A stretch of DNA of 64,000 nucleotides from Hymenobacter translucens. Its GTDB lineage: Bacteria > Bacteroidota > Bacteroidia > Cytophagales > Hymenobacteraceae. The DNA lies in assembly GCF_020685205.1 (NCBI RefSeq), contig NZ_JAJERB010000004.1, positions 1 to 64,000 on the forward strand, read 5' to 3'. Shown one piece after another: positions 8,213 through 32,885 of the stretch. The translations under genes and the position numbers were made by a program. Under the pieces are notes generated by a model. The model worked only from the letters and a program-made list of their open reading frames with translations, was not told the origin of the DNA and ran no database searches. Position 1 is the first letter of the stretch. Every line of letters starts with the position of its first letter.

Positions 8213-8240
8213 AAGCTGTAAGCCTCAAGCTGCAAGCTGC
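8213..8240. repeat. Left heptad array (AAGCTGN x4) before a terminator
   Basis: Four 7-bp units (AAGCTGT, AAGCCTC, AAGCTGC, AAGCTGC) begin 12 bp after the rpmE2 stop codon. Their reverse complements recur at 8330-8357 on the other side of the terminator at 8252-8285. Confidence 0.85.
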
Positions 8241-8251
8241 TGTTCTACAAG

Positions 8252-8285
8252 CTCCCGCCAGCAGCAACGCTGGCGGGAGTTTTTG
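8252..8285 (+). terminator. Intrinsic terminator after rpmE2
   Basis: CTCCCGCCAGC pairs with GCTGGCGGGAG across a short loop and is followed by a run of five T. It sits between two inverted heptad arrays. Confidence 0.93.
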
Positions 8286-8329
8286 TTAGCAGCGCCGAAC
8301 TTTTCCTTTGCGGCCTTCCGTGTTGGCTT

Positions 8330-8357
8330 GCAGCTTGTAGCTTGCAGCCTGAAGCCT
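8330..8357. repeat. Right heptad array (GCAGCTT x4), inverted relative to the left one
   Basis: The four units GCAGCTT, GTAGCTT, GCAGCCT and GAAGCCT are reverse complements, with variation, of the AAGCTGN units at 8213-8240. The array ends nine bases before the ATG of the GlmU-like gene. Confidence 0.83.
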
Positions 8358-8365
8358 TTTCCGCC

Positions 8366-9604
8366 ATGAACATCCTGCTTTTCGACGACCCGGCCATTCG
8401 CCCCAACCTGCTGCCCTTCACCTTTACCCGCCCGGTAGCCGCGTTGCGCTGCGGCATTCTCACTATTGCCGAAAAATGGGAGCATTGGCTTGGGGAGCCG
8501 GCCAACTACCTGACCGAAGCGTACTTGCAGGCCAAGTACCCGGCCGGCCCCACCAGCGGCCCCGCCCTGGTCATCAACGGCGCCGTGTGCCCCGACGAGC
8601 CCCTGGTCCGGCAGATTCAGGCCCTGGCCCCCGGCCACGCGCTGGTCGACGGCAGCCTGCTGGTGGCGGCCCGCATCGAAGACGCCGCCCAGGTGGCCGA
8701 GCTGATTCAGAACGGCTTCTCTGCCGTAGAGGAAGTGGTGGAGCCGGTCGTCGCCATCAGGGAGGTATGGCACCTGTTTCTGCAGAACGGCGCCCAGATC
8801 CGGCAGGACTTTGCCCGCCTCACCGAAGGCCGTACGTCTCAGCCGGTCGGCGACGCGCATACCATCGTGTATGCCCCCGAAAACATCTTTATCGAGGAAG
8901 GCGTCAAGATTCGCGCGGCCATCCTGAATGCGGAGGACGGCCCGATTTACCTGGGCAGGAACTCCCAGGTGCACGAGGGCGCTATCATCAAAGGCCCCCT
9001 GGCGCTGGGCGAAGGCGCCCACATCAACGCCGGAGCCAAGATGCGCGGCGACAACACCATAGGACCCCACTGCAAAGTGGGCGGCGAAGTCGGCAACAGC
9101 ATCCTGATGGGCTTTTCCAACAAGGGCCACGACGGCTATCTTGGCAATTCCGTCATCGGAGAGTGGTGCAACCTGGGCGCCGACACCAACACGTCGAACC
9201 TGAAAAACAACTACGCCCCGGTTAAGATCTGGAGCCACACCGCCGGGCGCTTCGTAAACACCGGGCAGCAGTTCTGCGGCCTGATGATGGGCGACCACAG
9301 CAAGTGCGGCATCAACACGATGTTCAACACCGGCACGGTGGTGGGCGTGGCGGCCAACATCTTCGGAGCGGGCTTTCCGCGCACCTTTATTCCCTCGTTC
9401 AGCTGGGGCGGCCCGGCCGGCTTCGAAACCTTCCGCCTGCCCAAAGTGGCGGAGGTGGCCGAGCGGGTGATGGCCCGGCGCAAGCTGGCCTACGACGAAA
9501 CCGAGCAGGCCATCATGCGCCACGTGTACGAGCAGACCGCCAAAGACCGGGCCTGGGAGCGGACCGCCGGAGCGGCCGAAGCCAAGCCTACCACCGAGCA
9601 GTAG
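8366..9604 (+). CDS. GlmU-like sugar nucleotidyltransferase with left-handed beta-helix
   Basis: A 412-aa protein of the alternative GlmU type found in Bacteroidota. It is thought to make UDP-N-acetylglucosamine for peptidoglycan and lipopolysaccharide. The N-terminal half begins MNILLFDDPAIRPNLLPFTF and lacks the GxGTRM signature of classical GlmU. From about residue 175 come hexapeptide-repeat turns (for example IFIEEGVKIRAA, LGEGAHINAGAKMRG, NSVIGEWCNLGADTNTSN) forming a left-handed beta-helix, the acetyltransferase-type fold. The ATG at 8366 is chosen because it starts the conserved MNILLFDDP. The gene leads a tight cluster with a small membrane protein (2-bp gap) and holB. The exact in vivo reaction is inferred from the family. 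Confidence 0.88.
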   Translation: MNILLFDDPAIRPNLLPFTFTRPVAALRCGILTIAEKWEHWLGEPANYLTEAYLQAKYPAGPTSGPALVINGAVCPDEPLVRQIQALAPGHALVDGSLLVAARIEDAAQVAELIQNGFSAVEEVVEPVVAIREVWHLFLQNGAQIRQDFARLTEGRTSQPVGDAHTIVYAPENIFIEEGVKIRAAILNAEDGPIYLGRNSQVHEGAIIKGPLALGEGAHINAGAKMRGDNTIGPHCKVGGEVGNSILMGFSNKGHDGYLGNSVIGEWCNLGADTNTSNLKNNYAPVKIWSHTAGRFVNTGQQFCGLMMGDHSKCGINTMFNTGTVVGVAANIFGAGFPRTFIPSFSWGGPAGFETFRLPKVAEVAERVMARRKLAYDETEQAIMRHVYEQTAKDRAWERTAGAAEAKPTTEQ

Positions 9605-9606
9605 CC

Positions 9607-9882
9607 ATGAGCAACCCGCAGCCTCTGCAGGGCCCGAGCCTGGCGCTGGCCGTCTTCCTGACGGCGGCTTTGTTTGGGGGCGCCTTTTTCGCCTTTTATC
9701 AGTCCGTTACCGCCGGTATCGTGGCCGAGATAGTAACGGCCGCCGGGGTCTGGGCCCTGCTGCAGTTTCTGCGCCGCCCGCTGCCCACCGGTACCAAAGT
9801 TTTTGGGGCCCTGCTGATTGCCGGTTTAACGCTGGCCGTGCGGGTCGGCCTGCTGTTTGTTTTGCGCACTTACTGGGCCTAG
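9607..9882 (+). CDS. Small integral membrane protein, unknown function
   Basis: A 91-aa protein with three hydrophobic segments (about residues 12-30, 36-50 and 66-86) separated by short polar turns, including RRPLPTGTKV. No family is recognised. It starts two bases after the GlmU-like stop codon and ends three bases before holB, so the three are almost certainly co-transcribed and probably translationally coupled. Confidence 0.82.
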   Translation: MSNPQPLQGPSLALAVFLTAALFGGAFFAFYQSVTAGIVAEIVTAAGVWALLQFLRRPLPTGTKVFGALLIAGLTLAVRVGLLFVLRTYWA

Positions 9883-9885
9883 CGT

Positions 9886-11025
9886 ATGCGTTTTGTTCAT
9901 ATTCCCGGGCAGGTGGAGGTAAAGCGGGTGCTGGTGCAGAGTGTGGAGCGCAACCACGTGGCCCACGCCCAGCTGTTTCGCGGGGCCGAAGGCTCGGCGG
10001 CCCTGGCGCTGGCGCTGGCCTACGCCACGTTTCTGAACTGTGAAAGTCGGGAGCCGGGCGACCAGGATTCCTGCGGCCGCTGTCCGGCCTGCCAGAAAAC
10101 CGACAAGCTCGTTCATCCCGACCTCAACTTTATCCTGCCCGTCACGACCACCAAGGCCGTGCCTAAGGATGCCGTCAGCAGCAAGTTCGCGGCCGACTGG
10201 CGTGCGTTCGTGCTGGAAAACCCCTATCGGGGCCTCAACGACTGGATGCAGCACATCGGGGCCGAGAACAAGCAGGGCAGCATCTCCAAAGAAGAAAGTC
10301 TGCAGCTGCTGCGGCTGGTGTCGCTCAAGGCCTTTGAGGGACAGTTCAAGATCGTGGTTATCTGGTTGCCCGAGCTGATGCACCCGGCCGCGTCCAACGC
10401 CGTGCTTAAGCTACTGGAAGAGCCCCCGGCGGCTACCGTGTTCCTGCTGGTTAGCTACGCGCCCGAGCAGCTGCTGCCAACCATTATCAGCCGGGTCCAG
10501 CCCGTAGTGGTGCGTCCGCTGTCGGAGCCTGAAATCACCGATTTCCTGCATGACGAGCACCAGGTGCCCGAGGTAAAGGCCCGGCAGATTGCCCAGATTG
10601 CCGACGGCAACCTGGGAGCAGCCCTGGCCGCCCGCGAGACGTCCGCCGCCGACAACAACTACTTCGACTTTTTCACGGAATGGATGCGCCTGTGCTTTCA
10701 GGACAACTTCAAGGTGGTACTGGAGAAAAGTGACGAGTTCCAGAAGATGGGCCGGGAAAACCAGAAGGAGTTTCTGCACTACTCGCTGAGCCTGCTGCGC
10801 AAGGTGCTCCTCTTCGGCATCGACACCCAGTTGGTGCCCCATTTGCCCGCCAACGAGCAGCAATTTGTAAGCCGCTTCAGCCGGTTCGTAACCATGCGCA
10901 ACGCCGATCAGCTGACCAAGGAGCTCAACGACGCGCACTACCACGTGGAGCGCAACGCCAACCCGAGGATGGTATTCGTGGATACCTCGCTGCGCGTGGC
11001 TGAACTGCTGAAAATGGCCTCCTGA
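9886..11025 (+). CDS. holB: DNA polymerase III subunit delta'
   Basis: A 379-aa cytosolic component of the clamp loader that places the beta sliding clamp on DNA. Near the N-terminus is a zinc-finger-like cysteine cluster (NC, then CGRCPAC, about residues 51-67). The Walker A loop is degenerate (FRGAEGSAALAL, no GKT), as expected of delta' subunits that do not hydrolyse ATP. LPELMHPAASNAVLKLLEEPP near residues 162-182 is the conserved core of the AAA+ fold, and the SRVQPV stretch follows. The C-terminal collar domain is helical. It is the third gene of the GlmU-like cluster. Confidence 0.94.
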   Translation: MRFVHIPGQVEVKRVLVQSVERNHVAHAQLFRGAEGSAALALALAYATFLNCESREPGDQDSCGRCPACQKTDKLVHPDLNFILPVTTTKAVPKDAVSSKFAADWRAFVLENPYRGLNDWMQHIGAENKQGSISKEESLQLLRLVSLKAFEGQFKIVVIWLPELMHPAASNAVLKLLEEPPAATVFLLVSYAPEQLLPTIISRVQPVVVRPLSEPEITDFLHDEHQVPEVKARQIAQIADGNLGAALAARETSAADNNYFDFFTEWMRLCFQDNFKVVLEKSDEFQKMGRENQKEFLHYSLSLLRKVLLFGIDTQLVPHLPANEQQFVSRFSRFVTMRNADQLTKELNDAHYHVERNANPRMVFVDTSLRVAELLKMAS

Positions 11026-11045
11026 GGCTGAAAGCGCTGAAAAAG

Positions 11046-11090
11046 TATAGTTGCTAAACAACTATAGCCCACGCTAAACACCGTATAGCC
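11046..11090 (+). promoter_or_regulatory. Paired direct repeats upstream of hemC, candidate operator
   Basis: GCTAAACA occurs at 11053-11060 and 11073-11080 (period 20). TATAGCC occurs at 11063-11069 and 11084-11090 (period 21). The first copy is embedded in an 8-bp inverted repeat, TATAGTTG/CAACTATA (11046-11053 and 11059-11066). A spacing of 20-21 bp is two helical turns, which suits a dimeric regulator. The block ends 22 bp before a TAACTTTG -7 box. Confidence 0.5.
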
Positions 11091-11112
11091 ACTCCCCCCG
11101 CGCTGCCCTTCG

Positions 11113-11120
11113 TAACTTTG
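11113..11120 (+). promoter_or_regulatory. hemC -7 box (TAACTTTG)
   Basis: An exact TAnnTTTG match 100 bases upstream of the hemC ATG. No TTG lies at the -33 distance, so the promoter may need an activator, for example one acting at the direct repeats just upstream. Confidence 0.55.
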
Positions 11121-11219
11121 CCCGGGCCAACGCCGGGACAAGAAACAAAATCGGCGGAGCCCGGCCAAAAGCTGCTTCCGGCTCGGTCCTGATCTGAATC
11201 CCGCTACCTGACTTTACCT

Positions 11220-12158
11220 ATGAGACCTATTCGTATCGGTACCCGCGGCAGCCGCCTGGCTTTGTGGCAGGCCCACCACGTGGCCGCCTGCCTGGAGCGG
11301 GAGCAGCTGAGCACCGAAATCGTCATCATTACCACCAAGGGCGACGTCGTGCTCGACCGCAGCCTCGACAAGATCGGGGCGAAGGGCGTGTTCACCGAAG
11401 AGCTGGAAATAAGCCTGCGCACCGGCGCCATCGATATAGCCGTGCACAGCGCCAAGGACGTGCAGAGCTCTATCCCCGACGACCTGGAGCTGCTGGCGTT
11501 TATGGAGCGGGAAAAGGTAAACGACGTGGTCGTGAGCTACGACCCAAACTTCTCCCTGGACCAGCCGGACATCATCTTGGGCACGAGCAGCACCCGCCGC
11601 AAGGCCATGCTGCGCCGCTATTACCCGCAGGCGACGGCCGCTGAAGCCCGCGGCAACCTGCAGACCCGCCTGCGCAAGCTTGAAGAGGGGCAGTACCACG
11701 CCCTGGTGCTGGCCTACGCCGGAGTGCACCGCATGGAGTACGACTCGCTGATAACCCACGTGCTGCCTGAAACCCAGTTCATTCCCGCCACCGGGCAGGG
11801 CAGCGTAGCGGTAGAGTGCGCCCGCAGCCTGCGTCCGGAGCTGAAGGCGACGCTGCAGCGCATCCTCGACCATCCCGCTACCCATACCTGCCTGCGGGCC
11901 GAGCGGGCGTTTCTGCGCACCATGGAAGGCGGCTGCAGCATTCCGTCTTTTGCCCTGGCTACGCTTGACGTCACCGGCACGCTGGCCTTGCGCGGCGGCC
12001 TGATCAGCCTCGACGGGCAGGAGTATATCGAAGAGCAGTTCAGCACTTCCGAGCTAACGGAGGGCCCCGAAGCAATGGGCGTGGCTCTGGCCGAAAAGGT
12101 GCTGGGCCGCGGCGGACGCCAGATTCTGGACGCCATCCGGGCCGAGCGGGCCGTGTAA
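11220..12158 (+). CDS. hemC: Porphobilinogen deaminase (hydroxymethylbilane synthase)
   Basis: A 312-aa cytosolic enzyme that joins four porphobilinogen molecules into hydroxymethylbilane in heme synthesis. Recognisable features are the N-terminal IGTRGSRLALWQ, the VHSAKD motif ending at the catalytic Asp80, the GTSSTRRKAML substrate loop near residue 121, and Cys239 in MEGGCSIP, to which the dipyrromethane cofactor is attached. The length is normal. It is not followed by hemD; the next gene is convergent, with only one base between the two stop codons. Confidence 0.97.
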   Translation: MRPIRIGTRGSRLALWQAHHVAACLEREQLSTEIVIITTKGDVVLDRSLDKIGAKGVFTEELEISLRTGAIDIAVHSAKDVQSSIPDDLELLAFMEREKVNDVVVSYDPNFSLDQPDIILGTSSTRRKAMLRRYYPQATAAEARGNLQTRLRKLEEGQYHALVLAYAGVHRMEYDSLITHVLPETQFIPATGQGSVAVECARSLRPELKATLQRILDHPATHTCLRAERAFLRTMEGGCSIPSFALATLDVTGTLALRGGLISLDGQEYIEEQFSTSELTEGPEAMGVALAEKVLGRGGRQILDAIRAERAV

Positions 12159-12159
12159 C

Positions 12160-12819
12160 TTAGCGCCGGGTAAGGGCTGCCTCGTCAGCAGGCCGGGCCG
12201 GACCCTTGACTTTCTCGCGAATCCAGTACAGCAGCAAAGCCAGCACGGCTCCGCTGGTGTCGGCCAGCATGTCTTTCTGGGCATCCCAGATGTCGCCCTG
12301 GCTGCCCAGGAAAGCTGCGCCGGCGGAAGGGTCGCTCAGGTCGGCGTAAATCCACTCAATCAGCTCGTAGGCCATGGCCACCGTGCAGATGGCAAACAGG
12401 GCAAACAGGTAGGCAATGCTCCGCACCCGGATGGCCCGGTACCGGTCAAGCAGCTCCAGGATGGCAAAAGCATAAAAGCCCACGCTCACGTGCGCCACCC
12501 GGTCGTACATATTGCGCTTAAAGCCGAAGAGCTGGTTAAACCAGTCAAACGGCACCCGCTCGAAAGTATAGTGCCCCCCAATGGTGTGCAGGAAAATCAG
12601 CACGCTCATCAGCCCGTAAGCCAGATTGGAGAACCGGATTCCCCGCCGGTACAGCACGGCCAGCCCCACCACAATGGCGACAATAGGTGCGTTTTCGGCA
12701 ACCCAGGTGCCCCGCTCGTACGGATTGATGGCCAGCGCGACGAAGAGCACCAGGTAAGCCAGCAGCAGGAGTTTGGGAAGCCAGGGCGAAGAAGCCGGAG
12801 TAGGAGCGGACGGTGACAT
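12160..12819 (-). CDS. DUF2238 (YjdF) family membrane protein
   Basis: A 219-aa integral membrane protein with about six hydrophobic helices and the family motifs HTIGGHYTFERVPF, YDRVAHVSVGFYAF and YELIEWIYAD, followed by the GSQGDIWDAQKDMLADTSGA stretch. DUF2238/YjdF proteins are widespread but have no established function; the conserved His, Glu and Asp residues at membrane edges suggest an enzymatic or metal site, which is inference. The ATG at 12819 is preferred; an in-frame start 23 codons upstream would add a polar N-terminus not needed by the family. It is convergent with hemC. Confidence 0.87.
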   Translation of the reverse strand: MSPSAPTPASSPWLPKLLLLAYLVLFVALAINPYERGTWVAENAPIVAIVVGLAVLYRRGIRFSNLAYGLMSVLIFLHTIGGHYTFERVPFDWFNQLFGFKRNMYDRVAHVSVGFYAFAILELLDRYRAIRVRSIAYLFALFAICTVAMAYELIEWIYADLSDPSAGAAFLGSQGDIWDAQKDMLADTSGAVLALLLYWIREKVKGPARPADEAALTRR

Positions 12820-13020
12820 CAGGCGGGGATAGGTAAGCTGGTCGGCCTGAGTACGGCAATTCAGCGAAAACGCTATGTTGTATCCCAAAAAAACCGTCCT
12901 GACTGCGGGCGTACTTTCGTGTGAGCCGTAGTGTACAGACCCTATTTTCAGCTGAGCTACGCGCCCGGCCGGGGAAACCCGCTAATTTCGCGGCCAGCCT
13001 TACCTAAATACGTCGTCCTT

Positions 13021-13665
13021 ATGAAATTCATTTTTCGCCTGTCGGTACTGCTCAGCGTGTTCGTGCTGCTGGCTGCCTCTGTCGCCGTGGCCGCTAAAAA
13101 GCCGAAAAAAAGCCGGAAGGACCAGGTCGTTACCATCAGCACATCACAGGGCGACATCCGGCTGATTCTGTTCGACCAGACGCCTCTGCACAAGGCCAAC
13201 TTCCTGAAGCTGGCGGAAAGCGGCTTTTACACCGGCACCACGTTTCACCGCATCATCCCGGAGTTTATGATTCAGGGCGGGGATGCCAACTCCAAGGACG
13301 CCGAGCCCGGCAACGACGGCATGGGCAGTCCGGGCGAGGCCACGATTCCGGCCGAGATTCTGCCCGAGCTCAAGCACAAGTATGGCGCGGTGGCGGCTGC
13401 CCGGCAGGGCGACTTTGTGAATCCGCAGCGGGCCAGCAGCGGCTCCCAGTTCTACATCGTGCAGAACCATAACGGCGTGCCCCACCTCGACGGTCAGTAC
13501 ACCGTATTCGGGCAGGTTATCAGCGGCCTCGACGTTATCGACAAAATTGCCACCCAGCCCAAAGGCGCCCGGGACCGGCCCACGACCGACATCAAGATGA
13601 CGGTGAAAGTCGAGAAGCTGAAAAAGAAGAAAATCACCCAGCTCTACGGCTACACCTACGAATAG
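13021..13665 (+). CDS. Exported cyclophilin-type peptidyl-prolyl isomerase
   Basis: A 214-aa protein with a signal peptide (about residues 1-24, ending VAVAA), a short Lys-rich linker, and a cyclophilin domain that catalyses cis-trans isomerisation of X-Pro bonds, here probably in the periplasm. Family residues include FHRIIPEFMIQGG (catalytic Arg in FHR), GSQFYIV, and HLDGQYTVFGQV. The start was placed at the Met of the signal peptide. A TAATTTCG sequence at 12983-12990 resembles the -7 box with one change. The RmlD-like reductase gene starts six bases after its stop codon. Confidence 0.94.
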   Translation: MKFIFRLSVLLSVFVLLAASVAVAAKKPKKSRKDQVVTISTSQGDIRLILFDQTPLHKANFLKLAESGFYTGTTFHRIIPEFMIQGGDANSKDAEPGNDGMGSPGEATIPAEILPELKHKYGAVAAARQGDFVNPQRASSGSQFYIVQNHNGVPHLDGQYTVFGQVISGLDVIDKIATQPKGARDRPTTDIKMTVKVEKLKKKKITQLYGYTYE

Positions 13666-13671
13666 CGACCA

Positions 13672-14580: not shown

Positions 14581-14615
14581 GTAGCCGGCTGAACCCTTCG
14601 AAATGGGTATGACGC

Positions 14616-14648
14616 AAAAAAACCGCTGGCAAAACCAGCGGTTTTTTT
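14616..14648 (+). terminator. Intrinsic terminator after the RmlD-like gene
   Basis: AACCGCTGG and CCAGCGGTT form a 9-bp stem around a short A-rich loop, with seven A before and a T run after. It can work in either direction. Confidence 0.92.
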
Positions 14649-25061: not shown

Positions 25062-25300
25062 AGCGCAAAGGCGGCATGTGCCGGCCGTCGCTAAATGTAA
25101 TTTATTTGCGCGAAGACCGCACGGCGAACAAGCCTTTTATCGGTGAACTGGGACTTTCCGGTTGCTGCTGGTTCGGGTTGAGACAGGTCGGTTCGGCCCC
25201 ATGTGAGATTTCCCGCGGCCAGCATCGAGTGTCCGTAAGCACTTACAGCATGGGAGAGGACGCAGAAACCTTTCCCGCGCATTGGCACTTATACATTGCG

Positions 25301-25308
25301 TATTTTTG
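25301..25308 (+). promoter_or_regulatory. Bacilliredoxin -7 box (TATTTTTG)
   Basis: An exact TAnnTTTG match 52 bases before the bacilliredoxin ATG. A TTG at 25282-25284 lies 16 nt upstream, slightly short of the usual distance. Confidence 0.6.
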
Positions 25309-25359
25309 TGCGGCCCCCGGGCTTACCTCTTATTTTTCACCTTTCACGTTTATATACCA

Positions 25360-25782
25360 ATGGCCACCTACCCTGAATATATGGTAGCTCCTATCCGGCA
25401 GGACCTCGTGGAGGCCGGCTTCGAGCAGCTCATGACCCCTGAAGAAGTTAGCTCTGTACTCGAGAACACCAGCGGCACCGTGCTGCTGGCCGTGAACTCG
25501 GTGTGCGGCTGCGCCGCTTCCAAGGCCCGCCCGGCCCTTAAGCTGGCCGTTTCCAGCGCCGAGAAAAAGCCTGCCAAGCTGGTAACGGTTTTTGCCGGCA
25601 TGGAAACCGACGCCGTTGCCGAGGCCCGGCAGCACCTGCTGCCTTACCCGCCTTCCTCGCCCTGCATTGCCCTGTTCAAAGACGGCGAGCTGGTGCACAT
25701 GATTGAGCGGTACCACATCGAAGGCAACGACATGATGCGCATCGTGGACAACCTGCACGGTGCCTTCGAGGAGTATTGCTAG
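25360..25782 (+). CDS. BrxA/BrxB family bacilliredoxin-like protein
   Basis: A 140-aa cytosolic thioredoxin-fold protein of the YphP/YqiW (BrxA/BrxB) family. The active-site motif is Cys49-Gly50-Cys51 in NSVCGCAASKARPAL, as in Bacillus bacilliredoxins, which remove bacillithiol from oxidised proteins. The PPSSPCIALFKDGELVHMIERYHIEG segment with a cis-Pro-like strand follows, and the protein ends EEYC. The ATG at 25360 begins with the conserved MATYPEYMVAPIRQ; the open frame upstream is not family-like. Whether this organism makes bacillithiol is not shown here. It is a single-gene unit whose 3' side carries a TTAGG-type repeat. Confidence 0.93.
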   Translation: MATYPEYMVAPIRQDLVEAGFEQLMTPEEVSSVLENTSGTVLLAVNSVCGCAASKARPALKLAVSSAEKKPAKLVTVFAGMETDAVAEARQHLLPYPPSSPCIALFKDGELVHMIERYHIEGNDMMRIVDNLHGAFEEYC

Positions 25783-25787
25783 CGTTT

Positions 25788-25820
25788 TTAGGTCTTAGGG
25801 ACTTAGGGCTTAGGTCTTAG
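25788..25820. repeat. Degenerate TTAGGTC/TTAGGGAC array after the bacilliredoxin stop
   Basis: Starting five bases after the stop codon, TTAGGTC, TTAGGGAC, TTAGGGC, TTAGGTC and TTAG follow one another. This is the inverted version of the ACCCTAAG array at 25907-25991, on the other side of the terminator at 25844-25877. Confidence 0.88.
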
Positions 25821-25877: not shown

Positions 25878-25906
25878 CTGTAACCTGACGTCAGCAGGGC
25901 AGTAGC

Positions 25907-25991
25907 ACCCTAAGACCCTAAGACCCTAAGACCCTAAGACCCTAAGACCCTAAGACCCTAAGACCCTAAGACCCTAAGACCCTAAGACCTA
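25907..25991. repeat. 8-bp tandem array (ACCCTAAG x10) ending in a stop codon
   Basis: Ten exact ACCCTAAG units run from 25907 to 25986, followed by ACCTA, whose last three bases (25989-25991) are the stop codon of the M3 peptidase on the minus strand. Read on that strand the unit contains TTAGGG. Eight is not a multiple of three, so stop codons occur in all frames of both strands. Confidence 0.97.
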
Positions 25992-28073
25992 CAGCCCCAG
26001 CGACTTGAAGAAGGCTTCCTGGTTGGGCTCCCGGCCGAGAAACTCCTTGACGAGATTGTACTCCTCGTCGGTGCCGCCCCGGGCCAGGATCATATCCCGG
26101 TAGCGCAGGCCGGTTTTCTTGTCCATTACGCCGTTCTTCTCGAACACGGAGAACATGTCTTCGGCGTACACTTTCGACCACATGTAGCCGTAGTAGCCGG
26201 CGCCGTAGCCGGTGAGGTGGCCAAACGAAGCCTGCATGTTCGTGCCTTCCACGTAAGCGAAGGGCGTCAGCTGGTTTTGCAGGCGCTTCATCACGTCGGT
26301 AGTGGTTTCGGTGCCGTTCGGGTCAAACTTGTCGTGCAGGGTCATGTCGAGCGTGCCGTACAGGATCTGCTGCGAGGCGCCCAGGCCCGAGCCCACGTTG
26401 CGGGCGGCCCACATCTTGTCGTAAAGCGGCTTGGGCAGCACCTCGCCGGTCTGGTAGTGCTTGGCAAACGTCTTCAGGGCGTCGTAGTTCCAGGCCCAGT
26501 TTTCCAGAATCTGGGAGGGGGCCTCTACGAAGTCGCGCTTTACGCTCGTGCCCGACTGGCTCGACAGCTCGGCGGTGGTGAGCAGGTTGTGCATCACGTG
26601 GCCAAACTCGTGGAAGAACGTTACCACCTGGCCGTGGCTCATCAGCGCGGGCTTGCCGGCCGTGGGCGGGTTGAAGTTGCAAAGCAGCACAGCCTGGGGA
26701 AGCTGGTAGCCCTTGGGCGTAGCCTTGCCGCTGCTCACGCCAAAGCAGGCGGCGTGGGTGTACTTGTTGTCGCGCGGGAACAGGTCAATGTAGAATCGGC
26801 CGATAAGCTTGCCGTCGCGCTGCACTTCGAACATACGGGCGTCGGGGTGCCACACCTTCGGGTCCTTCACTTCGTTGAACTTCAGCCCGAACAAAGACTG
26901 GGTGGTCTGGAACAGGCCGTCAATAACCTTGTTTGCCTCGAAGTACTCCTTGATCTTCTCCCCGTCGAGCTGGTACTTGTCCTTCATCAGCAGGTTGCTG
27001 TAGAACGAGGTTTCCCAGGGGTTAATGGTCTTGGCGCCGGGGTCCTTAGTATAGGCGCGCTTCACCGTCAGCAGCTCCTCGAGGTCCTGCTGGCTTTTCT
27101 GCTTGACGCGGTCCACGAGCTTGGTTTCGAAGGCCCACACCGTTTCCGGGTTCTTGGCCATGCGGCTGCTGGTCTGGTACGCGGCGTAGGTTTTAAAGCC
27201 CAGCAGCTGCGCCTTTTTCTGGCGCTCAATCAGCAGCTTTTTCAGCACGTCCAGGTTTTTGTCGGCCGCGCGGTTGTTGTAGAGCGTGTAAAGCTGCTTG
27301 CGCTGCAGGTCCGACTCGGCGTAGCGCATAAACGTGCTGTAAGCCGGACCGTCGAGGCCGATGCGGTAGGCGTCGCCGGCGCGGGGGCGGCTTTTCTTAT
27401 AGTCCTCGGGCAGGCCTTTCATGTCGGCCTCGTTCACGAGCAGGAAGCCCTGGTCTTTGGCGATGTTGCCGCCGAATTCCAGGCTCAGGTCACCGATCCG
27501 GTCGTTGATGGCCTGCAATTCCTTGCGCTTCTCGGGCGTCAGGGCAAAGCCGTTGCGCTCGTAGTCCTCGATGGTCTCCCGCAGGAACTTCTTCCGCGGG
27601 CCGGTCAGGGCCTGGGCTTCCTTGGTTTTGGAGTAGTCCTTGACGGCCTTGTAAAGCTGCTCGTCCAGCTCCAACTCATTGCCATACTTACTGATAATGG
27701 CCAGGCTTTTCTGGGCCTGGTTGCGGATGGCCGAGTCGGGGCTGGCGTTGTAGAGGATGCTGATGGGCCCGGCCACCCGGCCAATGTTGTCGCCCAGGTC
27801 GTCGAGGGCAAGCATCGTGTTGGTGAACGTCCGCTTGCCGGTCGGAACCTTGTAGATGGCATTCAGGGCCGACTTCGTGGAGCCGATGATGCCGGTGGTA
27901 GCCTGGGCAATGTCGGCCTTGGTGGCTTTCTGAAAGTCGATAACCTGGTTGAAGCCCGGCGTGAGCGGGTTGGCTGCGGGGGCCTGCGGACCGGCGGCAA
28001 CCGCCGTAAAGCCGCTACCCAGCGCTGCGGCCAGAGTCAGGGCAACCCAGGCAGTAGAGTACGTCATACTCAT
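25989..28073 (-). CDS. M3-family zinc peptidase (peptidyl-dipeptidase Dcp/oligopeptidase type), exported
   Basis: A 694-aa peptidase with a signal peptide (about residues 1-27, ending TAVAAG). The zinc-binding motif HEFGH is in VTFFHEFGHVMHNLL in the C-terminal third, followed by the expected downstream Glu in the SQILENWAWNYDAL segment, a hallmark of M3 peptidases. The family cuts short peptides, removing dipeptides (Dcp) or cutting internally (OpdA); the signal peptide suggests periplasmic action. The start was set at 28073, where the signal peptide begins; a Met two codons later is equally possible. Its stop codon is part of the ACCCTAAG array. Confidence 0.94.
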   Translation of the reverse strand: MSMTYSTAWVALTLAAALGSGFTAVAAGPQAPAANPLTPGFNQVIDFQKATKADIAQATTGIIGSTKSALNAIYKVPTGKRTFTNTMLALDDLGDNIGRVAGPISILYNASPDSAIRNQAQKSLAIISKYGNELELDEQLYKAVKDYSKTKEAQALTGPRKKFLRETIEDYERNGFALTPEKRKELQAINDRIGDLSLEFGGNIAKDQGFLLVNEADMKGLPEDYKKSRPRAGDAYRIGLDGPAYSTFMRYAESDLQRKQLYTLYNNRAADKNLDVLKKLLIERQKKAQLLGFKTYAAYQTSSRMAKNPETVWAFETKLVDRVKQKSQQDLEELLTVKRAYTKDPGAKTINPWETSFYSNLLMKDKYQLDGEKIKEYFEANKVIDGLFQTTQSLFGLKFNEVKDPKVWHPDARMFEVQRDGKLIGRFYIDLFPRDNKYTHAACFGVSSGKATPKGYQLPQAVLLCNFNPPTAGKPALMSHGQVVTFFHEFGHVMHNLLTTAELSSQSGTSVKRDFVEAPSQILENWAWNYDALKTFAKHYQTGEVLPKPLYDKMWAARNVGSGLGASQQILYGTLDMTLHDKFDPNGTETTTDVMKRLQNQLTPFAYVEGTNMQASFGHLTGYGAGYYGYMWSKVYAEDMFSVFEKNGVMDKKTGLRYRDMILARGGTDEEYNLVKEFLGREPNQEAFFKSLGL

Positions 28074-28162
28074 AAGATGAAGTGGGAAAAAAGAAAGAAG
28101 GTCGGGCAAGGTAGCCACAATTCGAAAGACGCGCTGCCCGGCCGAAAGCTGCAAACCTGAAA

Positions 28163-28200
28163 AGCAAAAAAGCTGTTCCCGACGGGCGGGAACAGCTTCT
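28163..28200 (-). terminator. Intrinsic terminator after recQ
   Basis: AAGCTGTTCCCG and CGGGAACAGCTT form a 12-bp stem with a short loop. In the minus-strand transcript it is followed by a run of U. It lies 22 bp past the recQ stop codon and separates recQ from the M3 peptidase. Confidence 0.92.
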
Positions 28201-28221
28201 AAGGCTTGGAGCAAGTGGCGT

Positions 28222-30429
28222 TTAGTTGGCGTACTCGCTCAGGAACTTGATGCGCATCAGCCGCACGTCTTCCTCGGTGTAGTCGTCGGTGCCCAGCTCA
28301 CCCAGCGCTACCGCAATGTTGTCGGTGCTGGCCTGCAGGAAGTAATCGGTGATTTCGTCCTGCCGGTCCTGGTCGAGCACTTCGTTGATGTAGTAGTCGA
28401 GGTTGAGCTTGGTGCCGGAGTAGCAGATGTGCTCAATCTCCTCCATCAGCTCCCGCATGTCGATGCCCTTGGAAGAGGCAATTTCCTCCAGGTCCATCTT
28501 CTTGTCGATCTGCTGAATGATGTAGATCTTGATCTTGGACTTGTTGACGGCAGACTTCACCACCACGTCGGCGGCGGTCACGATGTCGTTTTCCTCGACG
28601 TACTTCTGAATCAAGCTCAGGAAGGGCTGGCCAAACTTCTGCGCCTTGCCCTGGCCGACCCCGCCCACGTGGGACAGATCTTCCATCTTGATGGGGAAGG
28701 TAGTCGCCATTTCCTTAAGGCTGGGGTCCTGGAACAAGACGTACGGCGGCAGGTTTTTCTCCTTGGCCATCTTCTTGCGCAGGCTCTTGAGCATCTCGAA
28801 CAGCGTGGCGTCGTGCCCGGCGGCCTGCTGCACCTCTTCCTGCTCCTGCTCCTGCTGCACTTCCTCGTCGAAGTTGTGGTCCTTGGTGAGCTTGATGGAG
28901 TGGGGACTTTCGATAAAGTCCAGGCCCTTCCGGGTGATTTTCACCACCCCGAAGTTGTCGATGTCCTTTTCCAGGAAGCCGTTGAGCAGGGTCTGCCGGA
29001 GCAGGGAGTGCCAGAAAGCGGCGTCGTGGTCTTTGCCCTGCCCGTACACCGGCAGCTCGTTGTGGCCGTAGCTTTCGACGTGGGCATTGTTCATGCCCAT
29101 CAGCACGGTACCGATGTGCTCGAGGCCGAAGCGCTGCTCGGTGGCAACCACCGCCTGCAGCGCCATCAGCACCTCATCCTTGGCCTCAAACCGCTCCTTG
29201 GGGTGGCGGCAGTTGTCGCAGAAGCCGCAGTCCTTCTCGAAATGCTCGCCGAAGTAGTGCAGCAGCTGCTTGCGCCGGCACACGGCCGAGTCGGCGTAGT
29301 TGGCCATTTCCTGAAGCAGCAGCTTGGAGTTGTCGCGCTCGGTCACGGGCTTGTCCTTGTTGAACTTCTCCAGCTTCACGATGTCGTCGTAGCTGTAGAA
29401 CATCAGGCAGTTGCCCTCCAGGCCGTCGCGGCCGCCGCGGCCGGTTTCCTGGTAGTAACCCTCAATGCTCTTGGGCGTGTCGTAGTGAATCACGAAGCGC
29501 ACGTCGGGTTTGTCGATGCCCATGCCGAAGGCAATGGTGGCCACAATCACGTCGGCTTCCTCATTCAGAAACGAGTCCTGGTTCTGCATCCGCACCTGGG
29601 GGTCGAGGCCGGCGTGGTAGGGCAGGGCCTTCACGTCGTTGACGCGCAGCAGCTCGGCAATTTCCTCCACCTTCTTGCGCGACAGGCAGTACACGATGCC
29701 GGCCTTGCCCTTGTGCTGCTTCACGTACTGAATCAGCTGCTTTTTGGTGTTGTGCTTGGGCCGCACCTCGTAGTAGAGGTTGGTGCGGTTAAACGAGGTT
29801 TTGAACACCGACGCATCGTCCATCTGCAGGTTCTTCTGGATGTCGAGCTGCACCTTGGGCGTGGCCGTGGCGGTGAGGGCAATGATGGGCACGTGGCCGA
29901 TATTGTCGATGATGCCGCGAATCTTACGGTATTCAGGACGGAAGTCGTGACCCCACTCCGAGATGCAGTGGGCCTCGTCGATAGCGACAAAGGAAATAGT
30001 GGCCTTCTGCAGAAAGTCGATGGTTTCGTCTTTGGTCAGGCTTTCCGGGGCCACGTAGAGCAGCTTGATGTCGCCGCTGATAACGTCCTTCTTGACGCGG
30101 TTTACTTCCGACTTGGACAGCGTGGAGTTCAGGAACTGGGCATTGACCCCGAACGCGTTAAGCTGATCCACCTGATTCTTCATCAGGGCAATGAGGGGGG
30201 AGATGATGATGGCGGTGCCGGGCAGTACCAACGCTGGCAGCTGGTAGCACAGGCTTTTACCGGCGCCGGTGGGCATGATGACGAAGGTGTTGCGGCCCTC
30301 GATAACGTTCTGGATGATGGCCTCCTGGGTTCCCCGGAACTGACCGTACCCAAAAACTTCTTTTAACTTGCCTTTCAGATCGGCTACCGGCTTCACTGCT
30401 TCTTTGACGGCTGGAATGGAATTGCTCAC
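28222..30429 (-). CDS. recQ: ATP-dependent DNA helicase RecQ
   Basis: A 735-aa 3'-5' DNA helicase for recombination and replication-fork repair. Helicase motifs: FRGTQEAIIQNVIEGRNTFVIMPTGAGKS (Q motif and Walker A), IDEAHCISEWGHDFRPEY (DEAH box with the RecQ aromatic loop), ALTATATPKVQLDI, and GRGGRDG (motif VI). The zinc-binding region has Cys residues in CRRKQLLHYFGEHFEKDCGFCDNC. A winged-helix domain follows, then an HRDC-type region near residues 540-620, interrupted by a Glu/Gln-rich linker. The start is GTG at 30429. A TAAATTTG -7 box lies at 30489-30496 on the minus strand. Confidence 0.96.
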   Translation of the reverse strand: MSNSIPAVKEAVKPVADLKGKLKEVFGYGQFRGTQEAIIQNVIEGRNTFVIMPTGAGKSLCYQLPALVLPGTAIIISPLIALMKNQVDQLNAFGVNAQFLNSTLSKSEVNRVKKDVISGDIKLLYVAPESLTKDETIDFLQKATISFVAIDEAHCISEWGHDFRPEYRKIRGIIDNIGHVPIIALTATATPKVQLDIQKNLQMDDASVFKTSFNRTNLYYEVRPKHNTKKQLIQYVKQHKGKAGIVYCLSRKKVEEIAELLRVNDVKALPYHAGLDPQVRMQNQDSFLNEEADVIVATIAFGMGIDKPDVRFVIHYDTPKSIEGYYQETGRGGRDGLEGNCLMFYSYDDIVKLEKFNKDKPVTERDNSKLLLQEMANYADSAVCRRKQLLHYFGEHFEKDCGFCDNCRHPKERFEAKDEVLMALQAVVATEQRFGLEHIGTVLMGMNNAHVESYGHNELPVYGQGKDHDAAFWHSLLRQTLLNGFLEKDIDNFGVVKITRKGLDFIESPHSIKLTKDHNFDEEVQQEQEQEEVQQAAGHDATLFEMLKSLRKKMAKEKNLPPYVLFQDPSLKEMATTFPIKMEDLSHVGGVGQGKAQKFGQPFLSLIQKYVEENDIVTAADVVVKSAVNKSKIKIYIIQQIDKKMDLEEIASSKGIDMRELMEEIEHICYSGTKLNLDYYINEVLDQDRQDEITDYFLQASTDNIAVALGELGTDDYTEEDVRLMRIKFLSEYAN

Positions 30430-30465
30430 TTGCTCGTAGAGGATTGAGATTCGAGAAACGCCCCA

Positions 30466-31476
30466 GTGCGTTGCAATCTCAATCTATACAAATTTAGATT
30501 GAAAGCACAGAACGACCTCAACCTTATTGCAAAAAAAGTGCTTTTCGAAGAAGCCGAGGCCATTCAGGGCGTGGCGGCTGCTTTGGATAGCACTCCCGAC
30601 TTCGCCAACTGCGTAAAGGCCATTCTGGCGCTGCGGGGCCGGGTCGTCGTAACCGGGGTAGGCAAGAGCGCCCACATTGCCGGCAAGATGGTGGCCACGC
30701 TGAACTCGACGGGTACGCCGGCCCTGTTCATGCACGCCGCCGACGCCATTCACGGCGACCTGGGCATGATTCAGCCCGAGGACTTCGTCATTGCCATCAG
30801 CAAAAGCGGCGACACGCCCGAAATCAAGGTGCTGGTACCCCTGCTCAAGCGCAAAGGCGTGCCGCTGGCAGCCCTGGTGAGCAACGCCGACTCCTACCTG
30901 GCCGTGCAGGCTACCTACGTACTGCACGCCCCCGTAACCCGCGAGGCCTGCCCGCACAACCTGGCGCCTACCACCAGCACCACCGCGGCCCTCGCCCTGG
31001 GCGACGCGCTGGCCGTGTGTCTGCTCGAGGCCCGGGAGTTTACCACCGCCGACTTTGCCCGCCTGCACCCCGGCGGTACGCTGGGCAAGAAGCTCTACCT
31101 GAAAGTAGGCGACCTGAGCCGGCAGAACCAGGCCCCGCAGGTCACGGAAAACGCCCCGCTGCGCGACATTATCCTGGAGATATCCGGCAAGCGCCTGGGC
31201 GCCACCGCAGTGCTCACTGAGCCCGCCGGTGCCCTGCTCGGCATCATCACCGATGGGGACCTGCGGCGCATGCTCACCAACTTCACCCGGCTCGAAGACA
31301 TCCGGGCCCGCGACATTCTCACGGCCGGGCCCGTCACCATCGATGTGGAGGACTTTGCAGCCGAGGCCCTGGCCCGGATGCAGGAGCGCAACATCACCCA
31401 GCTTATTGTGCTCGAAGACGGCCGTTTCAGCGGCTTTATTCACCTGCACGACCTGCTGCGCGAAGGACTGGTATGA
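30466..31476 (+). CDS. kdsD: KpsF/GutQ-type D-arabinose 5-phosphate isomerase
   Basis: A protein of up to 336 aa with an N-terminal sugar isomerase (SIS) domain (VVVTGVGKSAHIAGKMVATLNSTG, AISKSGDTPEIKVLVPLLK) and two C-terminal CBS domains (about residues 215-330). The family converts ribulose 5-phosphate to arabinose 5-phosphate, the precursor of Kdo in lipopolysaccharide. CPHNLAPTTSTTAALALGDALA and LHPGGTLGKKL are typical. The start is uncertain: GTG at 30466 is given, but TTG at 30499 (MKAQNDLNLIAKKVLFEEAEAI) fits homologues better. It is divergent from recQ. Confidence 0.92.
   Translation: MRCNLNLYKFRLKAQNDLNLIAKKVLFEEAEAIQGVAAALDSTPDFANCVKAILALRGRVVVTGVGKSAHIAGKMVATLNSTGTPALFMHAADAIHGDLGMIQPEDFVIAISKSGDTPEIKVLVPLLKRKGVPLAALVSNADSYLAVQATYVLHAPVTREACPHNLAPTTSTTAALALGDALAVCLLEAREFTTADFARLHPGGTLGKKLYLKVGDLSRQNQAPQVTENAPLRDIILEISGKRLGATAVLTEPAGALLGIITDGDLRRMLTNFTRLEDIRARDILTAGPVTIDVEDFAAEALARMQERNITQLIVLEDGRFSGFIHLHDLLREGLV
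30480..30501. promoter_or_regulatory. recQ -7 box inside an inverted repeat
   Basis: CAATCTA (30480-30486) and TAGATTG (30495-30501) form a 7-bp inverted repeat with an 8-bp spacer. The minus-strand -7 box TAAATTTG (complement of 30489-30496) lies inside it, about 60 bases before the recQ GTG. The sequence also covers the start region of the divergent kdsD-type gene, so it could coordinate both. Confidence 0.5.
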
Positions 31477-31593
31477 GAAGCTGCGGCGAGGCCAGCCGGC
31501 GTTTACGTTTTGAATGCGCCAGCCTGCGTCAGCTGAACCGCTGCTTCTTGGCTACTCATCCGGAGGCTTCCTGTCCACCTCAGTACTTCCCGC

Positions 31594-31601
31594 TACCTTT
31601 G
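31594..31601 (+). promoter_or_regulatory. manC -7 box (TACCTTTG)
   Basis: An exact TAnnTTTG match, 54 bases before the mannose-1-phosphate guanylyltransferase ATG. Confidence 0.6.
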
Positions 31602-31654
31602 TCTTTCTTCCGGGTCCGGTATCCCTTCCGTCCAGGCTTTTGAAGTACTCTGCT

Positions 31655-32749
31655 ATGCAAGAAAATACCTACCTCGTGGTCATGGCCGGTGGCATTGGCA
31701 GCCGCTTCTGGCCTTTTAGCCGGACGCACAATCCCAAGCAGTTTCACGACGTGCTCGGCGTAGGACGCTCGATGCTGCAGCTGACCGTGGACCGTTTCGA
31801 GGGCATCTGCCCGCCCGAAAACGTGTTCATCGTGACGCACCGCGACTACCGCGAGCAGGTGCAGCAGCACCTGCCCCAGCTGGCCCCCGAGCAGATTCTG
31901 ATTGAGCCAATCGGCCGCAACACGGCGCCCTGCATTGCCTACGCCAGCTACCGGATAGCCCAGCACGACCCGAAGGGCGTCATCATCGTGTCACCGGCCG
32001 ATCATGCGGTGCTGCACGAAGACGAGTTCCGGCGCGTGATAACCCAGGCCGTAGCCGGCGCCCGCACCAACGATATCCTGCTGACCCTGGGCATCCAGCC
32101 CTCCCGCCCCGACACCGGCTACGGCTACATTCAGTACCTCGACCAGGATGAGGCCGGCCATGCCTTCCCGGCCGGCTTTAAAAAGGTGAAGACCTTTACC
32201 GAAAAGCCGAATCTGGAGCTGGCCCGCATGTTTGTCGACAGCGGGGATTTTCTGTGGAACTCCGGGCTGTTCGTATGGCGGGCCGACGTTATCATTCAGG
32301 CCTTCCATCAGTACCTGGGCGACATTGCCGAGGTATTCGACGAAGGCGTGGAGCTGCTGGGAACTCCGGCCGAAGAGGAGTTTATTGCCGAAGCCTACTC
32401 CCGCTGCCGCAACATCAGCATCGACTACGGGGTGATGGAAAAGGCCGACAACGTGTTTGTGCTGCCCGCCGACTTCGGCTGGAGCGACCTGGGCACCTGG
32501 GACTCGCTGCACCGCATCGGGGAGCGGGACGAGCACGGCAACGTAGTCGACGGCGACGCCTTACTTTATGACACCCAAAACTGCGTGGTGAAAACTCCGT
32601 CGGAGCGGCTGGTCGTGCTGCAGGGCCTGGATGGCTACATCGTGGCCGAGTACGACAACGTGCTGCTGATCTGCAAGCGCAGTGAGGAGCAGCGCGTCAA
32701 GGACTTCGTGGCCGACGTGCGGACGAAGAAGGGGAACGGGTACAATTAA
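31655..32749 (+). CDS. manC: Mannose-1-phosphate guanylyltransferase
   Basis: A 364-aa cytosolic enzyme that makes GDP-mannose from GTP and mannose 1-phosphate, for polysaccharide or glycoprotein sugars. The nucleotide-binding motif is VVMAGGIGSRFWPFSRTHNPKQF at residues about 8-30. SPADHAV near 110, the FTEKPNLELARM segment near 185 and WNSGLFVWRAD near 205 follow. There is no phosphomannose isomerase domain, so it is the single-function short form. The ATG at 31655 is supported by the promoter at 31594. It lies downstream of the kdsD-type gene and is followed by a heptad-type repeat and a terminator. Confidence 0.95.
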   Translation: MQENTYLVVMAGGIGSRFWPFSRTHNPKQFHDVLGVGRSMLQLTVDRFEGICPPENVFIVTHRDYREQVQQHLPQLAPEQILIEPIGRNTAPCIAYASYRIAQHDPKGVIIVSPADHAVLHEDEFRRVITQAVAGARTNDILLTLGIQPSRPDTGYGYIQYLDQDEAGHAFPAGFKKVKTFTEKPNLELARMFVDSGDFLWNSGLFVWRADVIIQAFHQYLGDIAEVFDEGVELLGTPAEEEFIAEAYSRCRNISIDYGVMEKADNVFVLPADFGWSDLGTWDSLHRIGERDEHGNVVDGDALLYDTQNCVVKTPSERLVVLQGLDGYIVAEYDNVLLICKRSEEQRVKDFVADVRTKKGNGYN

Positions 32750-32757
32750 GAATTCGC
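32744..32757. repeat. Short AATTAAG/AATTCGC unit pair at the manC stop
   Basis: AATTAAG and AATTCGC overlap the manC stop codon (TAA at 32747-32749). CAATTAAGAATT here is the exact reverse complement of AATTCTTAATTG in the array at 32851-32885, across the terminator. Confidence 0.65.
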
Positions 32758-32804
32758 TTTTGGCGAGTTCCGCTCGTTGGGCGGTATCTGATTCGGTTTG
32801 AAAC

Positions 32805-32849
32805 AAAAAGGCCGTTCAACTCCCGGGTGGAGTAGTTGAACGGCCTTTT
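32805..32849. terminator. Bidirectional terminator between manC and rlmB
   Basis: AAAAGGCCGTTCAACT pairs with AGTTGAACGGCCTTTT around a loop of about 12 bases. It separates two convergent genes and lies between two inverted repeat arrays. Confidence 0.94.
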
Positions 32850-32850
32850 C

Positions 32851-32885
32851 AATTCTTAATTGCTAATTGTTAATTCTTAATTGGC
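32851..32885. repeat. Heptad array (AATTCTT-type x5) overlapping the rlmB 3' end
   Basis: Five 7-bp units, AATTCTT, AATTGCT, AATTGTT, AATTCTT and AATTGGC, begin at the foot of the terminator and run into the rlmB gene, so the last four codons and the stop codon (32870-32872) of rlmB are repeat sequence. The array is inverted relative to the unit pair at the manC stop. Confidence 0.85.

Follow-up and report, generated by a model that had tools for sequence, protein, structure and literature searches.

Closest described repeat systems

The closest published relatives of the repeats analyzed here are the inverted GGGAATC heptads of Xanthomonas (PMC4692102) and the TAACTGA repeats (PMC4679880). 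In the available sections of the former report, the GGGAATC units of Xanthomonas and the GGGGA(C/T)T units of Nostoc are intergenic, lie near ORF ends according to a strand rule, may form stem-loops and vary in length and sequence between relatives. The Xanthomonas heptads are scarce between divergent ORFs and occur as close inverted pairs, 70 in one genome and 75 in another; each genome has one G-rich unit, read as quadruplex-forming, and Nostoc has few paired repeats (PMC4692102). The TAACTGA repeats of Beggiatoaceae, Cyanobacteria and some Bacteroidetes are intergenic and near start codons, show indels in 7-nt steps and are associated with shorter gaps in relatives without repeats. They comprise a single unit and are described as direct repeats (the main genome has one indirect repeat), and in the available sections of that report paired inverted arms, as found in Hymenobacter, are not the rule (PMC4679880). 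REP/REPIN and MITE elements represent short palindromic intergenic repeats with many copies, some of them at 3' ends (PMC3733652, PMC3116915).

Like the Xanthomonas heptads, the arrays of Hymenobacter are tandem 7-nt units that are mostly intergenic and form close inverted pairs. Unlike them, they comprise nine families within a single genome, of which several lack G runs, and orthologous junctions retain the hairpin while its unit is swapped. In the accessible parts of the open-licence literature, we found no earlier account of inverted heptad arms of diverse units located at orthologous junctions.

Array-flanked hairpins in the window

For the window, meaning the whole 64-kb stretch of DNA analyzed here, an earlier note had described three places where a terminator sits between an array and its inverted counterpart (Table 1). 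This architecture is present at two of them; at place 3, an array stands on the right side only, and AATTAAGAATT on the left overlaps the stop of a nucleotidyl transferase gene (31514-32749). The orthologous gap in the relatives L056 and L057 carries mirror-image arms on both sides; regarding the hairpin of place 3, GGCCGTTCAAC also occurs in L057, and L056 has a similar stem. At place 1, the arms match at 22/26 positions in the best arm alignment. The hairpin between them is plain in the sequence though absent from the list of a simple terminator scan, probably because its stem pairs into the T-run. A pattern search for this terminator (CTCC..GGAG..TTT) detected it in 29/30 orthologous gaps, and the arms flanking it differ among these gaps.

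The right arm of place 2, on the minus strand, starts at the stop codon of a peptidase M3 gene (25989-28214). Arrays starting at or including a stop codon, as claimed previously, are thus seen here, in the right arm of place 3 and at positions 1-84; the left arm of place 1 begins 6 nt past the stop. The array at 1-84 has no visible partner arm, because the contig begins there. Using Rfam 15 at gathering score, no matches were obtained in the window.

Table 1. Arrays and hairpins at the contig start and at three gene junctions of the window
Feature	Start	End	Strand	Genomic context or remark
Contig start, 12 perfect TAGGTCT heptads	1	84	-	On the minus strand, starts with TAG stop of DUF5777 gene (82-987)
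Place 1, left arm, AAGC-type heptads	8207	8240	+	6 nt 3' of stop of ribosomal protein L31 gene (7955-8200)
Place 1, intrinsic-terminator-like hairpin and T-run	8252	8285	+	
Place 1, right arm, inverted GCTT-type heptads	8326	8357	-	8 nt before start of sugar nucleotidyl transferase gene (8366-9604)
Place 2, left arm, TTAGG-type heptads	25788	25820	+	5 nt 3' of stop of PF06491 gene (25282-25782)
Place 2, bidirectional terminator-like hairpin, 17 pairs	25842	25879	+	Read by eye
Place 2, right arm, 10.4 perfect copies of 8-mer ACCCTAAG	25907	25989	-	
Place 3, left side, AATTAAGAATT only, about 1.5 units, no array	32744	32754	+	
Place 3, terminator-like hairpin	32806	32849	+	
Place 3, right arm, AATTNNN heptads, 4.7 copies	32851	32883	-	Contains stop of SpoU methylase gene (32870-33838)

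Period, orientation and folding of the arrays

In a sample of 864 kb (the window and 40 further stretches), intergenic arrays with a score of at least 13 comprised 15 of period 7, five of period 8 and 12 of period 14, and every other period from 2 to 21 yielded at most two. Coding arrays numbered just 1, 1 and 1 for periods 7, 8 and 14, and shuffled DNA gave 0.0 arrays per shuffle at these periods, in line with the earlier argument against chance. The largest sample covered 2.06 Mb (42%) of the Hymenobacter translucens genome and contained 195 intergenic gaps with period-7/8 arrays. Here, same-gap pairs at most 500 nt apart were inverted in 61 cases, direct in one and unclear in 10. Among the control periods, the corresponding counts were 0/0/3 for periods 5/6 and 0/2/1 for periods 9/10, with no pairs for periods 11/13; no inverted same-gap pair was found at any other tested period in the 2.06 Mb. 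In 1.264 Mb, the period-7/8 pairs were 36/0/5, compared with 0/11/44 for periods 5/6 and 0/1/1 for period 9. The architecture therefore extends well beyond the three places first noticed, and its arms are far from being direct as often as inverted.

A periodic hairpin was recognized in 47/303 same-strand gaps of 70-140 nt and in 3/303 once shuffled. All 35 tested arm-to-arm segments fold below mononucleotide shuffles (z < -2), and swapping in a foreign right arm raised the energy per base in 30 of the 35.

Placement between genes

Inverted pairs sit at gene 3' ends, mainly between co-directional genes. The gaps harboring the 61 pairs lie between genes on the same strand (51), convergent genes (8) or divergent genes (1), with one unassigned; among all gaps of 60-400 nt, the same-strand, convergent and divergent counts are 732/184/202 (Fisher p 1e-4). 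Median distances to the genes are 6 nt for the start of the left arm and 7 nt for the end of the right arm, and both arms are within 20 nt of genes in 38/61 pairs. At single-array level (1.264 Mb), 86/151 arrays lie at most 12 nt from a gene edge, where random placement gave a mean of 34.7 and a maximum of 46 in 200 draws. At two junctions compared across species below (A and D), the right arm stops a few nt short of the next start codon.

Terminators and stop codons

The earlier note had proposed that the arrays extend or reinforce intrinsic terminators, and indeed all three places in the window have a terminator-like hairpin and the gaps lie at gene 3' ends. However, a sense terminator-like hairpin was detected in 8/26 same-strand, 5/8 convergent and 1/2 unassigned inverted-pair gaps, as against 137/317 same-strand and 72/82 convergent array-free gaps. 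Since the detector is permissive and also fires in 56/88 divergent gaps, this result shows a lack of enrichment and no more. The hairpin is often formed by the arms themselves, and many pairs have no inner terminator. Furthermore, the prevalence of co-directional genes and the right arms ending just before a start codon at junctions A and D speak against terminators. On the lack of enrichment, and subject to the permissiveness of the detector, classical terminator function was rejected as the common factor, and we regard the terminator explanation as unlikely.

Neutral microsatellite slippage with chance inversion, or a guard of stop codons against read-through, could be suspected from perfect, recent-looking arrays such as those at 1-84 and 25907-25989. 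Stop triplets are also slightly enriched on both strands (7.2 vs 6.0 and 7.5 vs 4.0 per 100 nt of arm, column-permuted null), a statistic for which arms sharing a family do not count as independent. Yet three-frame stops, which the arrays had been suggested to provide, occur on either strand in just 18/72 arms (14.4 on average under the null), and the stop-codon guard was set aside. As a full account, this explanation is refuted by the 61-to-1 inversion, and other periods behave otherwise; we consider it highly improbable.

Unit families and matching of the arms

The 61 inverted-pair gaps of the 2.06-Mb sample sort into nine unit families. A different unit per place, as stated previously, is therefore true of the three named places and not of the genome in general. 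For 59/61 right arms, the nearest left arm from another gap belongs to the same family. Within a family, inner loops show no clear resemblance (p 0.08 by permutation). The GTTG family has an apical core with 23 copies at no more than three mismatches (backward control, 0). While REP/REPIN and MITE families each have a conserved sequence in the available descriptions (PMC3733652, PMC3116915), a conserved apical core was seen in Hymenobacter in the GTTG family only, and the arms are arrays of units. As in foldback or MITE elements, inverted repeats stand at both ends of each pair, with a middle part enclosed. Counting against such an origin, the analysis brought out no transposase, target duplication or insertion event for these hairpins. 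Hallmarks of REP/REPIN elements are a tag tetranucleotide and a RAYT transposase in the genome. A plasmid search across phyla returned three weak records for the GTTG arm (two Streptomyces, one Nostoc) and none for the AAGC arm. Presumably, the arrays resemble those in Pseudomonas and Nostoc chromosomes.

A fixed 7-8-nt period would also suit quadruplex arrays, or an RNA- or DNA-binding protein whose binding sites recur in 7-nt steps, with inversion as a by-product. In accordance with this, the left arm, read inward, is the G-richer strand in 30/36 pairs, which corresponds to the strand rule of the Xanthomonas repeats in the available text (PMC4692102). Against it stand the AATTAAG, AAGCTGC and GTTGTCA families, which are among those without G runs, and the wholesale replacement of the unit at the same junction (see below), which leave this explanation very unlikely in our view.

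Orthologous junctions in related species

Junctions A, D and E were compared in the best-matching 30 of 61 Hymenobacter-level genomes. Periodic hairpins were found in 15/29 parsed gaps at junction A and in 19/27 at junction D; the units fall into eight clusters among 18 species at A and six among 19 species at D. At junction E, 12/13 species retaining the same upstream gene carry arrays. Likewise, the gap between RecQ and the next gene contains arrays in 20/37 species of the Cytophagales, many with their own units. At orthologous junctions, a hairpin of the form X-loop-rcX is kept in many species, and its unit is sometimes replaced wholesale. This applies to L333 and L334 (90.3% identity over 3,190 aligned bases) and to L311 and L313 (89.5% over 3,758), whereas the family is retained in 3/5 of the closest pairs at junction D. 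Sister species with flanks about 90% identical have hairpins of different units, a single arm, a direct array or none. Junction A is empty in the two sister species L294 and L295, where stop and start are just 8 and 7 nt apart.

To judge from these alignments, fold and place seem to outlast sequence at these gaps. An element class defined by fold and place alone, in which the hairpin is kept while gene order lasts and some process rewrites both arms at once with a new unit from a changing set of families, is conceivable, though we rate its chances as rather low. The 7-8-nt step would then reflect the writing process and not function, and the putative writer would be a polymerase or reverse transcriptase re-priming on about four bases.

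Mirrored changes between arms

Across species, mirrored double changes between arms amounted to 186, compared with a permutation mean of 44.7 and a maximum of 66 in 300 permutations. One-sided changes were far more frequent (933), and 8/20 array pairs showed at least four one-sided changes and zero mirrored ones. An earlier, less strict count over 130 pairs gave 181 positions both changed and paired and 1,051 one-sided changes. The across-species comparison also revealed an own-partner excess at junction A (p 0.0015, n=10) and junction D (0/10,000 permutations, n=16), which may reflect species-specific unit repertoires and therefore does not settle arm pairing.

These data bear on local templated growth, in which a pre-existing hairpin, often a terminator, would make the replicating strand fold back, so that one flank serves as template for the other. 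Tandem slippage would turn the flank into an array, with no movement between loci. Hairpins are known to arise and to be maintained by template switching, and such an origin accounts for one-step perfect stems and mirrored changes; tandem arrays, families common to several loci and gene junctions lie outside the available part of that treatment (PMC8794818). The excess of mirrored changes argues for local growth, and so do the exact mirror arms of L313 (33/33) and of L065 (RecQ gap), the pair L068 and L094 with nine mirrored changes and one one-sided change, and the place 1 terminator kept while its arms differ. However, local growth does not predict the sharing of families among gaps, and the inner terminator it would often grow from is missing in many pairs. 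Moreover, within this genome, own partners did not clearly match better than other arms of the family: neither the alignment score (p 0.15 for 36 pairs; p 0.33 for 59 pairs) nor the ungapped score (p 0.53) showed an excess, and the longest exact run did (p 0.01), being one of several statistics tried. The templated copying of local sequence considered in the earlier note is hence favored by the mirrored changes and disfavored by two of three within-genome statistics, and we see it as an improbable, albeit serious, candidate.

Proposed origin of the hairpins

The arrays are characterized by inversion, a fixed period, gene-edge hugging, near-absence between divergent genes and nine families, and the same fold recurs with other units at orthologous junctions. 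Our tentative preference, held with slightly less than even confidence, is that fast-turning foldback-type hairpins re-occupy gene junctions, with arms that partly co-evolve. The element would occupy the whole gap at a gene 3' end and consist of a degenerate 7-8-nt unit arrayed twice in opposite orientation, the middle being either a short loop, a terminator or a further palindromic repeat. Members of short palindromic repeat families may be copied into junctions or overwrite them repeatedly, both arms together. Subsequently, the arms would change by whole-unit slippage and, in part, by inter-arm copying (template switching) or compensatory change. Once transcribed, they could form a stem, intercistronic or at the 3' end, which would be either tolerated or useful, for example as a 3'-end barrier, as a processing or attenuation site, or in uncoupling neighbouring cistrons. 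In this way, a hairpin of some spelling would be retained at the junction. At place 1, the conserved terminator between the arms means that simple insertion cannot explain both arms.

According to the available sections of the 2015 Xanthomonas paper, bacterial heptad repeats, observed for many years, are still without an accepted function (PMC4692102). The orthologous junctions make this question testable. Should it be the fold that is conserved, annotation by sequence overlooks an intergenic element that is common in Cytophagales; should the arms be newly written, a process with a 7-8-nt step, mutational or mobile, awaits discovery.

Heptad arrays in the window

The arrays and hairpin of place 1 fill the space between two plus-strand genes, which encode ribosomal protein L31 and a sugar nucleotidyl transferase; those of place 2 fill the space between a PF06491 gene and a peptidase M3 gene, which are convergent. 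Place 3 is one-sided within the window, because its left side holds AATTAAGAATT only. Because the contig starts within a perfect array of heptads, such repeats may cause breaks in assemblies. Searching the whole window against Rfam gave no match at gathering score.

Arrays and hairpins in the window, and gaps with a second dispersed repeat (L numbers denote fetched DNA stretches)
Feature	Position	Unit or form	Remark
Place 1, left array	8207-8240	AAGC-type heptads	
Place 1, hairpin	8252-8285	with T-run	
Place 1, right array	8326-8357	inverted	
Place 2, left array	25788-25820	TTAGG heptads	
Place 2, hairpin		17-pair	between left and right array
Place 2, right array	25907-25989	10.4 perfect 8-mers	minus-strand start is the TAG stop of the peptidase M3 gene
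Place 3, right array	32851-32883		contains stop of SpoU methylase gene
Fourth array	1-84	12 perfect heptads	begins at stop of gene 82-987, runs off contig end
GTCATCCTGAGC...GAAGGACC repeat gaps	L012:2035-2323, L013:1731-1963, L017:15938-16116, L020:8736-9009, L035:2061-2423, L037:13574-13793, L047:19268-19529		

Inverted pairs in the H. translucens genome

Three samples of the 4.96 Mb genome were analyzed (864 kb including the window, 1.264 Mb and 2.06 Mb), with genes from a purpose-written simple codon-usage caller whose stop positions are reliable and start positions less so. Intergenic arrays of the 864 kb sample showed periods of 7, 8 or 14 and little else. In 1.264 Mb, same-gap pairs were inverted, direct and unclear in 36, 0 and 5 cases, compared to 111, 127 and 1,762 among 2,000 random pairs and 0, 11 and 44 for a period 5/6 control. 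The 2.06 Mb sample contained 61 inverted, one direct and 10 unclear pairs at most 500 nt apart; its controls gave 0, 0 and 3 (period 5/6) and 0, 2 and 1 (period 9/10), and no pairs within 500 nt were found for period 11/13. Extrapolated genome-wide, this amounts to roughly 150 strict inverted pairs. Simple slippage cannot produce the inversion of the arms.

Clustering by arm similarity divided the 61 inverted pairs into nine families, named after our reading of exemplar arms: GTTGTCA type (19 pairs), AATTAAG (11), AAGCTGC (8), TTGGGGTC (6), TTAGGTC (5), AGCTATT (4), TTGGTTT (3), GGAGTTA (3) and TGATTGT (2). The nearest left arm from another gap belonged to the family of the right arm in 59/61 pairs. 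Purely local copying does not account for families common to several gaps. The GTTG family looks dispersed in the genome, its hairpin apex GTTGTCAGAACGATCCTAACAAC occurring 23 times at up to three mismatches (backward-read control: 0), and common inner loops in the other families were not significant (permutation p 0.08, 45 loops).

Median distances are 6 nt from the preceding gene to the start of the left arm and 7 nt from the end of the right arm to the following gene (n = 61), and both arms lie within 20 nt of genes in 38/61 pairs. Between the arms, the median spacer length is 39 nt (≤ 40 nt in 32/61), and a short loop joins the arms in a number of gaps. The pair gaps comprise 51 same-strand, 8 convergent, 1 divergent and 1 unassigned, compared to 732, 184 and 202 same-strand, convergent and divergent among all gaps of 60-400 nt. 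Inward-reading arms of the first 36 pairs contained more G than C in 30 cases and less in 4. Terminator-like hairpins were not enriched in inverted-pair gaps, and a terminator function fails to explain hairpins a few nucleotides upstream of a start codon.

Several gaps also contain a further dispersed palindromic repeat (GTCATCCTGAGC...GAAGGACC, plus its inverse), which in some is nested between the heptad arms; in L020 a terminator is innermost. A rare divergent gap (L031:11287-11557) carries two exactly mirroring arms of 14-nt units, AATTAGTAAGTAAG, about 160 nt apart.

Orthologous junctions in related genomes

Of 30 gaps read at place 1, 29 have a terminator recognized by pattern, 11 carry arrays and 7 carry two or more. 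Their units are of AAGC, AGCT or GTGC type; in one gap (L165) left and right arms appear unrelated. Place 2 has TTAGG units in the window; at this junction H. lucidus and H. daecheongensis have GTTG units flanking the terminator, and some other species have inverted runs of CGGATTNNN (step about 9). In H. metallicola, the closest named relative among the matches listed, the gap measures 79 nt and contains just the terminator. Simple insertion does not account for arms flanking a conserved terminator on both sides.

Six stretches from other species (L196, L208, L059, L060, L095, L099) show CGGATT or AATCCG cores in inverted runs around the place-2 terminator, with a step of about 9. Near-perfect long palindromes without arrays lie around the terminator position in L093 (place 3) and in L068 and L189 (place 2).

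The RecQ protein, whose gene adjoins place 2, was scanned against named genomes. Among the 80 best loci from a longer list, the gap to the next gene carried arrays in 20/37 species of Cytophagales, many paired and with their own units (TGATGAG, GTTAAGAG, GTAAGTC, AATGAAT, AGGAGT and others), and arrays of period 7/8 also occurred at Pontibacter, Spirosoma and other Cytophagales loci.

Three further junctions (A, D and E) were each traced in the best-matching 30 of 61 genomes; each was chosen for its hairpin in H. translucens, which favours every count by one species. Junction A showed at least one array in 20/30 and a hairpin with inverted periodic arms (X-loop-rcX) in 15/29 parsed gaps, junction D in 23/30 and 19/27, respectively; at junction E, 12/13 species with the same upstream gene had an array and 11/13 two or more. 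Such hairpins occur in 47/303 same-strand gaps of 70-140 nt in H. translucens and in 3/303 shuffled ones. Those found at A fall into 8 unit clusters (18 species) and those at D into 6 (19 species). Junction A is empty in L294 and L295 (stop-to-start 8 and 7 nt), has a single arm in L303 and, in L293, about 13 direct AATTATG copies after the gene stop without an inverted partner. In a relative that is 89.7% identical, the corresponding gap measures 7 nt.

Unit turnover and mirrored changes

In the five closest hairpin-bearing pairs at junction D (fetched DNA 89.0-92.6% identical), the whole unit changed on both arms in two (L333/L334, L311/L313) and the family was kept in three. The L313 arms form an exact 33-nt mirror, and by eye the stretch replaced between L311 and L313 reaches from just past the stop to the following start codon.

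Across gap hairpins of all kinds in 160 species pairs, 186 changes were mirrored, with both sides altered and still paired (permutation mean 44.7, sd 6.0, highest 66 of 300), and 933 were one-sided, 235 of them via a G-T pair. The 20 pairs with array arms contributed 23 mirrored and 153 one-sided changes; eight had at least four one-sided and no mirrored changes. A separate comparison of L068 with L094 gave nine mirrored and one one-sided change. Within H. translucens, own partners were no closer than other arms of the same family (alignment p 0.33, ungapped score p 0.53), and the longest exact run was 12.7 for the own partner versus 11.9 for other family arms (p 0.01). These results indicate that arms share family and orientation, with exact mirroring limited to some places and species.

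Relation to known repeats and possible origin

PMC4692102 describes Xanthomonas GGGAATC heptads near ORF ends that follow a strand rule and are rare between divergent ORFs; two genomes contain 70 and 75 inverted pairs, respectively. TAACTGA repeats are reported from Beggiatoaceae, Cyanobacteria and five Bacteroidetes (PMC4679880), and a survey of prokaryotic satellites reports families derived from heptamers (PMC6749651). Heptad repeats themselves are therefore known, and the novel aspect is the diversity and exchange of units at orthologous junctions.

As slippage, terminator function, local copying and insertion each fail on one feature, we tentatively favour recurrent re-occupation, a reading that is quite possible if somewhat short of probable. 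Short foldback-type repeats may occupy gene junctions again and again, after which slippage and partial copying from arm to arm would follow; hairpins can arise and be maintained by template switching, according to PMC8794818. We infer both these renewal steps and a role in RNA: the hairpin would be retained because it is tolerated or useful in mRNA.
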